Assembly (NCBI RefSeq): GCF_030518155.1 | Contig: NZ_JAULRU010000836.1 | Span: 1-64,000 of the forward strand | DNA from: Gilvimarinus gilvus | Lineage (GTDB): Bacteria; Pseudomonadota; Gammaproteobacteria; Pseudomonadales; Cellvibrionaceae | Direction: 5' to 3' | Length of the DNA stretch: 64,000 nt | Shown here: in pieces, positions 4,024 through 16,021 of the stretch | How positions within the stretch are numbered: position 1 is the stretch's first letter | How the letters are laid out: every line of letters starts with the position of its first letter | Notes under the pieces: model-generated | Seen by the model: only the letters and a program-made list of their open reading frames with translations | The model's database searches: none | Told to the model about the DNA's origin: nothing | Position numbers and translations under genes: made by a program

Positions 4024-4431
4024 TTACAGTGCCATTTCTTTCAGCTTCTTCAGCGGGCGCACTTTTACCTGAGTAGTGGCGGGCTTGGCTTTGAACATGG
4101 TTTCTTCGCCTGTGAAGGGGTTGATGCCTTTACGAGCTTTTGTTGCAGGCTTCTTAACGGTCTGAATTTTTAACAGGCCTGGCAACACAAATTCACCACA
4201 GGCACGTTTTTTGATATGACCTTCAATGACATCTGATAGCTCGTCCAATACGGCTTGAACTTGCTTCTTGCTCAGTTCGGTATTTTCAGCAATTTGGTTC
4301 AGAATTTGGGTTTTGTTATAGCGTTCGCGAACGGCGGTCACTTTTTTAACCGGAGCGGCTTTGGCTGCTGGTTTCTTGGCAGCGGCTTTCTTGGCGGGTG
4401 CTTTTTTTGCTGTAGCTTTTCTGGCGGCCAT
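4024..4431 (-). CDS. HU/IHF-family DNA-binding protein with Lys/Ala-rich N-terminal tail
   Basis: A nucleoid-associated protein of 135 residues. Residues 1-33 are a low-complexity KKAPAKKAAAKKPAAK-type tail resembling eukaryotic histone H1 tails. From about residue 38 comes the HU/IHF fold, including the DNA-embracing arm motif KGINPFTGEE. Ordinary HU proteins are about 90 residues, so the tail is an addition. The HU part should bend or wrap DNA, and the tail should add nonspecific, possibly modifiable, charge contacts (inference). The start at ATG 4431 has AAAGGAAAAAG just upstream. It is monocistronic, with a shared terminator downstream and about 280 bp without a gene upstream. It is not a standard hupA/hupB, so no symbol is given. 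Confidence 0.9.
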   Translation of the reverse strand: MAARKATAKKAPAKKAAAKKPAAKAAPVKKVTAVRERYNKTQILNQIAENTELSKKQVQAVLDELSDVIEGHIKKRACGEFVLPGLLKIQTVKKPATKARKGINPFTGEETMFKAKPATTQVKVRPLKKLKEMAL

Positions 4432-12733: not shown

Positions 12734-15016
12734 ATGTTAAGTAAAGATCTAGAAGTAACCCTGAACATGGCCTTTAAAGGGGCTCGCAGTAAGCGGCATG
12801 AGTTTATGACCGTGGAGCACTTGCTATTGGCGTTGATCGACAATGAATCGGCGGCCAATGTCTTGCGCTCCTGCGGTGCTGATTTGGTCGTTCTTCGACG
12901 GGAATTGATTGAGTTTGTCGACTCCACGACGCCGTTACTCCCGGAAAACGACGATGAGCGCGAAACCCAGCCAACCTTGGGTTTCCAGCGGGTGCTGCAG
13001 CGCGCGGTATTCCATGTGCAGTCCTCGGGTAAGCAAGAGGTTACCGGGGCCAATGTTTTAGTGGCAATTTTTAGCGAGCAGGAAAGCCAGGCGGTCTATT
13101 ACCTGAAGCAGCAGAGCATTGCGCGTATTGATGTGGTGAATTACATCACTCATGGCATTCAAAAAGTGGCTGGCCACGAGCACGGCTCTGAAGAGCCGTC
13201 ACAGGATCAAGCCGACGAAGAGACGTTGGGCGTTGAACAGCCCTCGCAAAGCCCGTTAGAAAATTATGCGGCGAACCTCAATGAGTTGGCTTCTGCAGGT
13301 AAAATTGACCCGCTGATTGGTCGTGCTTATGAGCTCGAACGAGTGGCGCAAATTTTAACGCGTCGGCGCAAAAATAATCCGCTGTTGGTGGGGGAGTCCG
13401 GTGTTGGTAAAACAGCAATCGCGGAAGGCCTGGCCAAACGTATTGTCGACGGCGAAGTGCCAGAGGCGCTGGCATCAAGTGTTGTGTACTCATTGGATAT
13501 GGGGGCGTTGCTCGCCGGCACCAAATACCGCGGCGATTTTGAAAAGCGTTTTAAAGGCTTGTTGCAAGAGCTTAAAAAACAGAAAGATTCGATTCTTTTT
13601 ATCGATGAAATACATACGATCATCGGTGCCGGCGCGGCATCGGGCGGGGTAATGGATGCGTCCAATCTGCTGAAACCTCTGTTGAGCTCAGGCCAGTTGC
13701 GCTGTATGGGCTCGACAACTTATCAAGAGTACCGTGGGATCTTTGAAAAAGATCGGGCGCTATCTCGTCGCTTTCAAAAAGTGGATGTGGTTGAGCCTAC
13801 AGTGGATGAAACTTATCAAATTCTCAAAGGGCTGAAAAAGCACTTTGAAGAGCACCACGGGCTGCGTTTTACCGAGCCCGCGTTAAAGGCTGCGGCGGAA
13901 TTAGCCGAGCGCTATATCAATGATCGATTCTTGCCCGATAAAGCGATTGATGTGATCGATGAAGCGGGAGCCTACCAACAGTTGCAGCCACCCAGTAAGC
14001 GCAAGAAAACTGTTGGCGTGACCGACGTTGAGGCGGTTGTGGCAAAAATTGCCCGTATTCCTCCCAAAAGTGTGTCAGCGAATGATTTAGAGCAGCTGCG
14101 CAAATTGGAAGATAATCTCAAGTTGACGGTGTTTGGTCAGAACGAAGCTATTGAAACTTTGGCCACGGCTATTAAATTAGCGCGGGCAGGTCTGCGTACG
14201 GGCGACAAACCCATAGGCTCATTCTTGTTTACCGGGCCTACGGGCGTGGGTAAAACGGAAGTCAGTAAGCAGCTGTCGAAGTGCTTAGGGGTGGAGTTGG
14301 TTAGGTTTGATATGTCGGAATACATGGAGCGCCATACCGTATCGCGTTTGATTGGTGCCCCACCTGGGTATGTTGGTTTTGATCAAGGAGGGTTGTTAAC
14401 CGACGCCGTGACCAAAAACCCGCACTGCGTGGTGTTGCTGGATGAAATCGAAAAAGCTCACCCCGATGTATTCAATTTGCTGCTGCAGGTTATGGATCAC
14501 GGTACCTTGACGGACAATAATGGGCGCAAAGCGGATTTTCGCAATGTAATACTGGTTATGACAACCAATGCGGGAGCCGAGGAAGCCAGCAGGGCGTCTA
14601 TTGGGTTTACCAAGCAAGATCATTCCACCGACGCGATGGAAGCGCTCAAGCGTATGTTTACGCCGGAGTTTCGCAACCGGCTTGATGCGATCGTGCAATT
14701 TGGCTCACTGCCCATGAGTGTCGTTGAAACAGTGGTCGATAAATTTCTCACTGAGTTACAAAGTCAGCTGGACGATAAAAAGGTCACCCTCGAAGTTACT
14801 GAGCGCGCTCGCAAATGGTTAGCCGTAAACGGTTACGATGAAAAAATGGGCGCAAGACCAATGGCACGCTTAATCCAGGAGAAAGTTAAAAAGCCGCTGG
14901 CCGAAGCGGTACTGTTTGGTGATTTATCCGGTGGCGGCGTGGTCGAAGTTGATGTGGCAGAAGGGCGCGATGAACTGGCGCTGGAGTATGAAACCAATGA
15001 GTTAGAGCACGCGTAG
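12734..15016 (+). CDS. clpA: ATP-dependent Clp protease ATP-binding subunit ClpA
   Basis: AAA+ unfoldase of 760 residues that feeds ClpS-bound and ssrA-tagged substrates to ClpP. It has an N domain (1-145) and two AAA+ modules. The first has Walker A GESGVGKT and DEIHTIIGAG. The second has GPTGVGKT and LDEIEKAHPDVFN, with GARPMARLIQ near the end. The ClpP-docking loop reads IGF (E. coli ClpA has IGL). The start is ATG 12734 (MLSKDLEVTLN) with GAGAGG at 12720-12725 upstream. The longer frame from 12674 is not like the family. clpP is not in the window. Confidence 0.98.
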   Translation: MLSKDLEVTLNMAFKGARSKRHEFMTVEHLLLALIDNESAANVLRSCGADLVVLRRELIEFVDSTTPLLPENDDERETQPTLGFQRVLQRAVFHVQSSGKQEVTGANVLVAIFSEQESQAVYYLKQQSIARIDVVNYITHGIQKVAGHEHGSEEPSQDQADEETLGVEQPSQSPLENYAANLNELASAGKIDPLIGRAYELERVAQILTRRRKNNPLLVGESGVGKTAIAEGLAKRIVDGEVPEALASSVVYSLDMGALLAGTKYRGDFEKRFKGLLQELKKQKDSILFIDEIHTIIGAGAASGGVMDASNLLKPLLSSGQLRCMGSTTYQEYRGIFEKDRALSRRFQKVDVVEPTVDETYQILKGLKKHFEEHHGLRFTEPALKAAAELAERYINDRFLPDKAIDVIDEAGAYQQLQPPSKRKKTVGVTDVEAVVAKIARIPPKSVSANDLEQLRKLEDNLKLTVFGQNEAIETLATAIKLARAGLRTGDKPIGSFLFTGPTGVGKTEVSKQLSKCLGVELVRFDMSEYMERHTVSRLIGAPPGYVGFDQGGLLTDAVTKNPHCVVLLDEIEKAHPDVFNLLLQVMDHGTLTDNNGRKADFRNVILVMTTNAGAEEASRASIGFTKQDHSTDAMEALKRMFTPEFRNRLDAIVQFGSLPMSVVETVVDKFLTELQSQLDDKKVTLEVTERARKWLAVNGYDEKMGARPMARLIQEKVKKPLAEAVLFGDLSGGGVVEVDVAEGRDELALEYETNELEHA

Positions 15017-15042
15017 TTTTTCAAGCTGCGCGGCTTCGAAAT

Positions 15043-15070
15043 AAATCCCGGCTTTGGCTGGGATTTTTTT
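15043..15070 (+). terminator. Terminator of clpA
   Basis: The inverted repeat 44-52 / 57-65 (offset 15000), with one G-T pair and a TTTG loop, is followed by a run of seven T, 27 bp after the clpA stop. It separates clpA transcription from the downstream repeat array. Confidence 0.8.
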
Positions 15071-15098
15071 GTTCTGGTGTACAACTTACCTTTTGTCC

Positions 15099-15236
15099 AC
15101 ATTCGGGGCCATCTATGCACAATGCGCTGCCGATCATAAGTGCGCGAGCGCCAAGTGGTAAAGCAACAATCGATCGCGGCGGCCCGCTGTTATCACCGGG
15201 TAAATATCACCGGGTGTATTCAGCAATGGCATCTTG
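15099..15236. repeat. Possible decayed copy of the 138-bp repeat
   Basis: Upstream of unit 1 the sequence keeps the order of landmarks in degenerate form: GCGAGCG near 15143, CAACAATCG near 15164, GCCCGCT near 15182, GTAAAT near 15200, GTATTCA near 15215, and ATGGC with GGCCAAT just before unit 1. The hairpin-B segment appears deleted. This suggests an older, shortened copy. The alignment is by eye. Confidence 0.4.
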
Positions 15237-15298
15237 GCCAATGCGAGCGACTGAAGAGCAAGCAATTTGCGACAATTGCGCCCGCTCGTCGTGGCGAC

Positions 15299-15331
15299 GA
15301 TAGGAATGGGTTGGGGCGATCCATTCCTATC
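15299..15331. repeat. Hairpin B of repeat unit 1
   Basis: An 11-bp perfect stem (15299-15309 with 15321-15331) and an 11-nt loop. The same hairpin recurs at 15437-15469 and, in extended form, at 15575-15607. Confidence 0.85.
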
Positions 15332-15340
15332 AGTAGGTAA

Positions 15341-15361
15341 ATGAATACAGGAGGTATTCAT
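15341..15361. repeat. Hairpin C with AGGAG loop
   Basis: An 8-bp perfect stem (15341-15348 with 15354-15361) encloses the loop AGGAG, so an anti-16S-like AGGAGG is displayed at the tip. It recurs 138 bp later at 15479-15499. Confidence 0.8.
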
Positions 15362-15368
15362 CATTGGC

Positions 15369-15482
15369 ATGTTTGCCAATGCGAGCGACTTAAGAGCAAG
15401 CAATTTGCGACAATTGCGCCCGCTCGTAGTGGCGACGATAGGAATGGGATGGGGCGATCCATTCCTATCAGTAGGTAAATGA
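15369..15482 (+). CDS. Candidate 37-residue mini-ORF of repeat unit 2 (uncertain)
   Basis: An ATG in hairpin D opens a frame of 37 codons (starting MFANASDLRASNL, with a hydrophobic LVVATIGMGWG centre) that ends in TGA exactly where hairpin C of the next unit starts. AGGAGG lies 14 nt upstream, longer than the ideal spacing. Unit 3 has the same start but stops at TAG after 25 codons, and unit 1 has no matching ATG. Copy-to-copy decay argues against a conserved peptide. Listed because the ribosome-site sequence is striking, not because translation is shown. Confidence 0.2.
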   Translation: MFANASDLRASNLRQLRPLVVATIGMGWGDPFLSVGK

Positions 15483-15574
15483 ATACAGGAGGTATTCATC
15501 ATTGGCATGTTTGCCAATGCGAGCGACTTAAGAGCAAGCAATTTGCGACAATTGCGCCCGCTCGTAGGGGCGAC

Positions 15575-15607
15575 GATAGGAATGGGTTAGGACAACCCAT
15601 TCCTATC
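15575..15607. repeat. Hairpin B of repeat unit 3 (extended stem)
   Basis: A 14-bp perfect stem (15575-15588 with 15594-15607) and a 5-nt loop AGGAC. Compared with units 1 and 2 both arms have changed so that they still pair and pair further (GGGTT with AACCC). Confidence 0.85.
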
Positions 15608-15622
15608 AGTAGGTAAAAAGCC

Positions 15623-16021
15623 TCAATAGCTGTCGCGAATTATGCTGATGCCTGGCTCTATCGCGCGACGCCAGGACTGTTCGATGTCGTTGTTAAACTG
15701 CGGGTCAAACTTCGCCAGCGTTTCAAGTAGCGCGTCAAACCACAGAGAGTACCAGCGTGGTTCGATATTGTAACCCGTGCGGGAGTGGCTTTCGCCTAAC
15801 GCCTTCAGCTTAGTGGCAGGCATGCCCCTGGCATGCAGTACTAGCTGCATAATGCCGTTGCGTAAAAGGTGGCGTTGAGCTGACATGTCAGTGGCGCGGA
15901 ATAGGTTTCTAATTTCGTCGGATTTCCCCATAAAACGGTCGTAGAAATCAACGAAAAAGGCGTCCTGATTACAGCAGCGGCCGTAACTTTGAAAGACGAT
16001 ATCTGAATCCGGTGTGATCAT
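15623..16021 (-). CDS. Single-domain globin
   Basis: A 132-residue heme-binding globin. CD1 Phe is probably F41 (RNLFRATD) and the proximal His H79 in LGESHSRTGYNI, with the following RWYSLWFDALLETL helix. Bacterial globins of this group bind O2 or NO and are linked to nitrosative-stress defence or sensing; the specific role is not readable here. The start is ATG 16021, with CAGGAG ideally placed upstream. The frame is open to 16042, but that extension would include the ribosome site. The gene is monocistronic. Its 3' end touches the 138-bp repeat array, which may act as its transcript end. Confidence 0.85.
   Translation of the reverse strand: MITPDSDIVFQSYGRCCNQDAFFVDFYDRFMGKSDEIRNLFRATDMSAQRHLLRNGIMQLVLHARGMPATKLKALGESHSRTGYNIEPRWYSLWFDALLETLAKFDPQFNNDIEQSWRRAIEPGISIIRDSY

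Follow-up and report, generated by a model that had tools for sequence, protein, structure and literature searches.

Organization of the array between clpA and the globin gene

The window, a 64,000-nt stretch of contig NZ_JAULRU010000836.1 of Gilvimarinus gilvus, carries a tandem repeat array between clpA, whose stop codon lies at 15016, and a globin-like gene on the minus strand that ends at 15623. Pfam confirms ClpA and IF-1; the globin assignment scores 21.5 bits, just under the 22-bit cut-off. A terminator-like hairpin (15043-15066) 3' of clpA precedes the array, which is therefore probably no routine part of the clpA message. A simple sigma-70 scan of 14950-15700 found no plus-strand promoter-like site. 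Two weak Rfam matches, BSnc120 and ncS54, correspond to the end of clpA and its terminator, score far under their thresholds and were rejected.

TRF analysis gives a period of 138 with 2.9 copies and 95% matches over 15216-15617, bearing out the 138-bp tandem unit of the preliminary description. The unit starts given there (15237, 15375 and 15513) are exact, the lengths being 138, 138 and 105 with the third unit truncated, and the three differences counted there between units 1 and 2 are likewise correct; direct comparison of units 2 and 3 yields six differing positions. While these starts and the truncation stand, the register has to be revised, the repeat already beginning at 15209/15216. 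In the register of covariance model R2 (described below) the units occupy 15209-15346, 15347-15484 and 15485-15622, all on the plus strand. Unit 1 (repeat family D1; R2 score 116 bits, E 1.9e-40) consists of a degenerate hairpin C followed by hairpins D, A and B; unit 2 scores 126.4 bits; and unit 3 (131.5 bits) ends after hairpin B and the tail at 15617, the model match running to 15622.

The four palindromes per unit claimed earlier are present, and the order 5' to 3' on the plus strand is C, D, CGA, helix A, GAC, B and a tail. Hairpin C of unit 2 (15341-15361, plus strand) reads ATGAATAC-AGGAG-GTATTCAT with GGA in its loop, and a second copy occupies 15479-15499 in unit 3. Hairpin D lies at 15362-15381 in unit 2, with copies at 15224-15243 and 15500-15519. 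Helix A, which has a conserved asymmetric internal loop and an apical loop, spans 15385-15433 in unit 2 between CGA on its left and GAC on its right, and recurs at 15247-15295 and 15523-15571. Hairpin B has a GGGG loop lacking GGA in units 1 (15299-15331) and 2 (15437-15469); in unit 3 (15575-15607) a perfect 14-bp stem carries the loop region AGGAC, with GGA. The tail or spacer AGTAGGTAAA is found at 15470-15479, with copies at 15332-15341 and 15608-15617, all of these features being on the plus strand. Folding of 15200-15625 gives a z score of -6.7 against shuffled sequences, none of 100 shuffles being equally stable.

A possible eroded further unit of about 70 bases (15137-15208, plus strand) precedes the array; 26 of 500 shuffles score as high, and model R2 misses it even with filters off. 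Two open frames within the repeat, one of 135 aa on the minus strand (15134-15541) and one of 66 aa on the plus strand (15140-15340), have no Pfam match and are taken as a consequence of the period of 138, which is divisible by three. Gene finders may annotate such frames as hypothetical proteins. Elsewhere in the window, at 4361-4404, there is a 15-bp tandem repeat of 2.9 copies with 79% matches.

A dispersed family recognized by structure

In the host genome, blastn matched the repeat at the clpA array only. Among 97 relatives it returned no convincing relative, with one short match beyond the genome's own copies, and in 369 genomes of the class it returned the own copies and three short matches; phages, plasmids and E. 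coli genomes gave no match. The one short match inspected (L005) looks coding and was taken as chance. Covariance models gave a different picture. R1, built from the three window units, matched 18 of 144 genomes of the host family, the own genome included, with E values down to 5.8e-20 in the others. R2, built from 62 matches that include the window units, found the element in 18 of the 38 nearest relatives (own genome included, E up to 0.01), with 34 matches in genome G012, 33 in G003, 14 in G015 and 13 in G010, some of them weak, and revealed a second, diverged copy in the own genome on another contig (40.6 bits). Scans of more than 40 genomes were run with strict filters, under which weak matches are lost. 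In the class sample, R2 matched 12 of 369 genomes, namely the own genome, eight from five other families (E at most 1.3e-6) and three with weak matches (G318, G331 and G421) that are not counted on; in the phylum sample it matched 3 of 398, two of these being relatives from the host family and the third the own genome.

A pattern scan of named genomes yielded 61 stretches, ten of which match R2; the remaining 51, those from Pseudomonas included, do not. The named carriers are Microbulbifer donghaiensis, M. harenosus and an uncultured Pseudoteredinibacter, and further ones are a Cellvibrionaceae MAG, a Porticoccaceae MAG and an unplaced Proteobacteria MAG. Pattern matches in viral contigs look like chance: the one read out of four (L044) is a stand-alone terminator-like hairpin, and two further ones are a single contig, within an apparent Cys-rich coding stretch. 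The failure of blastn is explained by conservation of structure rather than sequence, and ordinary repeat finders may miss the family as well.

The unit matches none of the Rfam 15 families (CsrB, RsmY, RsmZ, TwoAYGGAY, HEARO and others), in searches of the window at E up to 1, of 12 loci at gathering scores and of six loci at E up to 1. Integron attC sites, CRISPR and self-cleaving ribozymes were considered by their motifs and set aside. Among the open-licence PubMed Central papers listed, nothing resembled the element, which is no proof that it is unpublished.

Tandem runs of two to five units occur at 19 of 103 loci. In Pseudoteredinibacter-like genomes, several contigs start or stop in an array or no more than a few hundred bases away from one (L081-L084, L088 and L090), so arrays may exceed their assembled length and number. 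A composite copy at positions 1001-1190 of L210 looks like a tandem pair collapsed through an internal deletion.

Of the searches that the preliminary description had proposed, those with covariance models have uncovered many dispersed copies with covarying stems, contradicting restriction to a single site. A purely local duplication of a neutral palindromic spacer would fit the one blastn site in the own genome and the short matches elsewhere, but it is contradicted by the covariance searches and by the covariation counts given below, and we consider it extremely improbable.

Covariation of the stems and the folding strand

Covariation was assessed in three ways, and each time the score was higher than in any of the 500 shuffles or any slid version. 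The first used a MAFFT alignment of 21 copies that was not fitted to structure, with the fold of L108 as the structure, hairpin C trimmed by one pair and hairpin B, which the alignment misplaced, excluded. Here 91.3% of cells are paired, both-sided changes occur in 27 of 32 pairs against a shuffled mean of 17.0, and the covariation score is 0.565, compared with 0.192 for shuffled and 0.086-0.164 for slid alignments. The second, a model-fitted alignment of 131 matches, scores 0.745 (shuffled 0.195, slid at most 0.123); its double changes in 38 of 38 pairs (shuffled mean 35.0; 9 of 500 shuffles attain 38) say little on their own, and the alignment is biased towards the structure. The third comprised 15 class-level rows, weak ones included, that took no part in model building, and these are 86.1% paired; double changes occur in 34 of 38 pairs, and the score is 0.371, compared with 0.122.

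Mismatches carry information on the strand. With the innermost B pair left out, 86 non-redundant copies contain 131 G-T pairs versus 63 A-C mismatches, a ratio of 2.07 (bootstrap 1.48-3.0), an excess suggesting that the plus strand is probably the one whose folding is selected. When its innermost pair is included, hairpin B shows 30 G-T against 50 A-C, opposite to the other helices.

Comparison of loci sharing neighbours gave mixed results. The orthologous loci L100 and L108, whose neighbours are 90% and 96% identical, differ by five double compensations, four one-sided changes that keep pairing and two broken pairs. L194 and L210, orthologous by eye from their 3' flanks, differ by seven double changes, two one-sided kept, five broken and one pair changed on both sides and broken. 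An excess of compensation is lacking in L087/L093 (one double, one one-sided kept, three broken plus two) and in L086/L092 (none double, two one-sided kept, three or four broken). Part of the covariation could also stem from template switches that correct palindromes, instead of selection.

The complete element and its mobility

The clpA-globin gap is 606 nt in the window versus 77 nt in G006, the closest relative examined, whose ClpA end is 93% identical to that of the window and in which R2 finds no element match anywhere. Judged from these two sequences, the array is an insertion relative to G006, of an approximate extent of 15073-15622 (no strand assigned).

The ends of the element are seen in relatives. 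In many of them the tail reads GCCGGGTTAATAG, and complete copies carry the inverted arm CTATTAACCCGGC upstream, which pairs with the next arm as a small palindrome, E. By position, the window tail AGTAGGTAAA would correspond to GCCGGGTTAATAG, the inverted-repeat arm at the 3' end of complete elements. Four copies in G018 have unrelated flanks and the same 15-bp inverted ends, one of them (L191) measuring 173 bp; the other three G018 copies share 95-97% identity with L191, part of which recurs at a fifth place with 92% identity. At 111 loci with sufficient flank, the inverted 5' arm was found at 37, the 3' arm at 48 and both at 28, compared with no inverted 5' arm at any of the 111 in a control stretch 530 nt further upstream. 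The exact end motif occurs 29 times in six of ten genomes and is absent from G000; its places are units (some weak), solo palindromes and, once (L226), a terminator-like hairpin. The solo palindromes, about 36 bp long, have the form CTATTAACCCGGC-N10-GCCGGGTTAATAG, some slightly changed, and stand without a unit (L224, L225, L230, L231, L229 and L232); that of L229 and L232 is apparently at the same place in two species, near the putative end of rpoC. Inspection by eye showed no target duplication at three of the G018 insertions and TA on both sides of the fourth (L192), and three further genomes of that genus yielded no empty site.

MITEs such as ERIC and Correia are small, non-coding sequences with terminal inverted repeats and intergenic locations. 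The present element resembles them in size, non-coding nature, inverted ends and intergenic sites, and in G018 it occurs in this short, non-coding, inverted-ended form at several sites; it departs from them in its multi-hairpin fold conserved through compensation. No consistent target duplication was seen by eye at the four G018 sites, and no parent transposon was found at the places of the exact end motif. With REP, BIME and REPIN sequences, which go with RAYT transposases, it shares a short palindromic, intergenic, dispersed and non-autonomous character, and the solo palindromes of about 36 bp add to the likeness; according to excerpts of two reports, REPs are found singly, in inverted doublets and in tandem (PMC3116915), and a REP is a single palindrome of 20-40 bp (PMC3733652). 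The unit described here, with at least 138 bp and four different hairpins, lies outside the REP size given in that excerpt (PMC3733652), and it further differs from REPs in its covarying stems, its GGA loops and the lack of a RAYT link at the inspected loci. REP tags are GTAG or CGTC at one end of the palindrome; GTAG occurs in the window tail AGTAGGT, and the family consensus tail is AGGT.AA.

A mobile, tandem-prone element with conserved structure is well supported by these data. We call it a new family of bacterial miniature mobile elements with an unusual conserved multi-hairpin fold and GGA loops.

Orientation to genes and the transposase question

Among 103 loci, of which some are orthologous and for which open frames were called mechanically, 33 are sense and 31 antisense, 18 lie in convergent and seven in divergent gaps, one is in an open frame and 13 could not be assigned. 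The earlier idea of a 3'-end stabiliser, taken as acting in host mRNA, gains no support from the 33 sense and 31 antisense loci of co-directional gaps: so even a split tells against any function in host mRNAs and favours plain insertion in which divergent gaps receive fewer copies.

The proposal of a dispersed structured family spread by a REP-associated transposase holds in its first part, through the covariance searches and the covariation, and finds no support in its second at the loci inspected. Eight of 40 Y1-transposase matches (six of them in carriers, with about 1.5 kb of flank each) were inspected, and neither a unit nor a pair of the inverted ends of the element was seen; three isolated one-arm matches with up to three mismatches are no more than chance.

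These observations bear on the main rival to an RNA role, in which the element acts at the DNA level, its hairpins serving as single-stranded DNA for an HUH/Y1 or other transposase and its GGA as contacts. The palindromic ends, the solo terminal palindromes, the four G018 sites lacking a consistent target duplication and the random gene orientation would all suit such an element, and the excess of G-T over A-C equally fits one DNA strand. However, the eight Y1 loci speak against it, as does G007, where the element is matched four times and Y1 not at all. The compensations between L100 and L108 also argue against it, appearing as if structure were kept after insertion, although the other locus pairs are mixed. 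We regard this DNA-level account as possible, if somewhat unlikely.

GGA loops and a candidate link to CsrA

Loop contents, read from alignment columns, are uneven: an apical GGA is present in 114 of 130 B and 96 of 128 C hairpins versus 8 of 128 for D and 3 of 130 for A (with a slightly different cut, 95 of 124 for C), and the contrast persists in copies less than 80% mutually identical (B 74/85, C 57/83, D 7/83, A 3/85). In the window array GGA is left in three of the six C and B loops; the decayed ones are the C loop of unit 1 and the B loops of the first two units.

In the excerpted account of PMC7652899, the SELEX consensus of CsrA is RUACARGGAUGU, mostly with AC/GU pairing under a six-base loop, and the CsrB repeats CAGGA(U/A/C)G are located in loops. 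For the C region, 24 of 142 copies match the SELEX consensus with at most two mismatches, where shuffles predict 0.4, and two copies are perfect (12/12). In the B region the 12-base consensus is no commoner than expected (9 of 142 at up to three mismatches, 9.45 expected), and the longer D plus A region gives raw counts of 2 of 142 within two and 34 of 142 within three mismatches. The CAGGA(U/A/C)G motif occupies the B apex in 49 of 130 copies and the C apex in 18 of 128, and is absent from D and A. In the predicted fold, each RNA would display several GGA hairpin loops, as Csr/Rsm sequestering RNAs do.

Of 32 genomes searched for csrA, 30 yielded it, comprising G006 and 29 of 31 carriers; the own genome also has csrA. 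It was not found in the carriers G014, where each of the three copies fetched still has GGA in C and in B, and G520, in which each of two copies has lost one of the two GGA loops. Genome G010 has nine CsrA-family matches, several in open frames of at least 120 aa, beside its 13 element matches.

Two groups of known RNAs invite comparison. With CsrB/CsrC and RsmX/Y/Z the element shares multiple GGA in hairpin loops and the CAGGA(U/A/C)G motif, as far as the excerpt of PMC7652899 describes them, but it differs in being mobile and multicopy, in having two GGA loops per unit and a large conserved middle domain, and in matching no Rfam model. The TwoAYGGAY RNA (RF01731) shares paired GGA hairpins; in the excerpted report such RNA hairpins are generally paired and CsrA binding is proposed for TwoAYGGAY RNAs (PMC4333381). 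The TwoAYGGAY stem described there has tandem G-A steps (PMC4333381); in the present element, the CGA and GAC flanking helix A could form similar steps. In contrast to the present element, TwoAYGGAY is predicted for Clostridia in that excerpt (PMC4333381), and its Rfam model was unmatched in the loci scanned.

Proposed mode of action

It is proposed that the array is a tandemly expanded, non-autonomous MITE-like element whose transcript would bind CsrA/RsmA through the C and B hairpins, a reading to which we give about an even chance. The complete form of about 173 bp consists of a terminal arm and a second arm paired as a small palindrome, the hairpins C, D, A and B, and the other arm. Tandem expansion by unequal recombination or slippage would be possible because the arm is directly repeated on both sides of the unit. 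In the putative transcript, hairpins C and B would display A(N)GGA loops, and this pair might be bound by CsrA/RsmA dimers; arrays may then act as decoys for CsrA/RsmA, titrating the regulator, or binding may protect the RNA of the element itself. Several results given above count against the CsrA reading: GGA survives in half of the C and B loops of the array, the B region shows no consensus enrichment, hairpin B with its innermost pair reverses the G-T excess, sense and antisense loci are balanced, the sigma-70 scan gave no plus-strand site, csrA was missed in two carriers, and two orthologous pairs lack an excess of compensation. The structured small-RNA array named among the initial options is likewise possible.

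The conserved loops of helix A have no explanation in the CsrA model. They lead to another rival, a structured regulatory or guide RNA with a different protein partner, in which helix A would be the active part and the GGA hairpins would bind a protein other than CsrA: a decoy would not require the degree of constancy seen in GCGAG, GCGCCAG, GGCGAC and the apical loop of A. Rfam families fail to match the unit, though, and neighbours vary by locus, all-against-all comparison grouping almost exclusively orthologous-looking loci, with a weak similarity among a few downstream genes as the sole exception. Such an RNA appears distinctly improbable to us.

Returning to the MITE-like element with CsrA-binding hairpins, a further step would make it a mobile CsrA sponge, whose copy number and tandem expansion would tune the Csr regulon of the host, the level of free regulator being set in part by the parasite. 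We advance this extension with reserve and think it rather unlikely.

Whichever reading holds, a multicopy element with very strong covariation is distributed in spots across the Gammaproteobacteria and has no Rfam match. Binding of CsrA by its GGA hairpins would mean that mobile DNA disperses target sites of a global RNA-binding regulator; without such binding, the family would be a fresh case in which to study the movement of structured DNA repeats and the upkeep of their fold.
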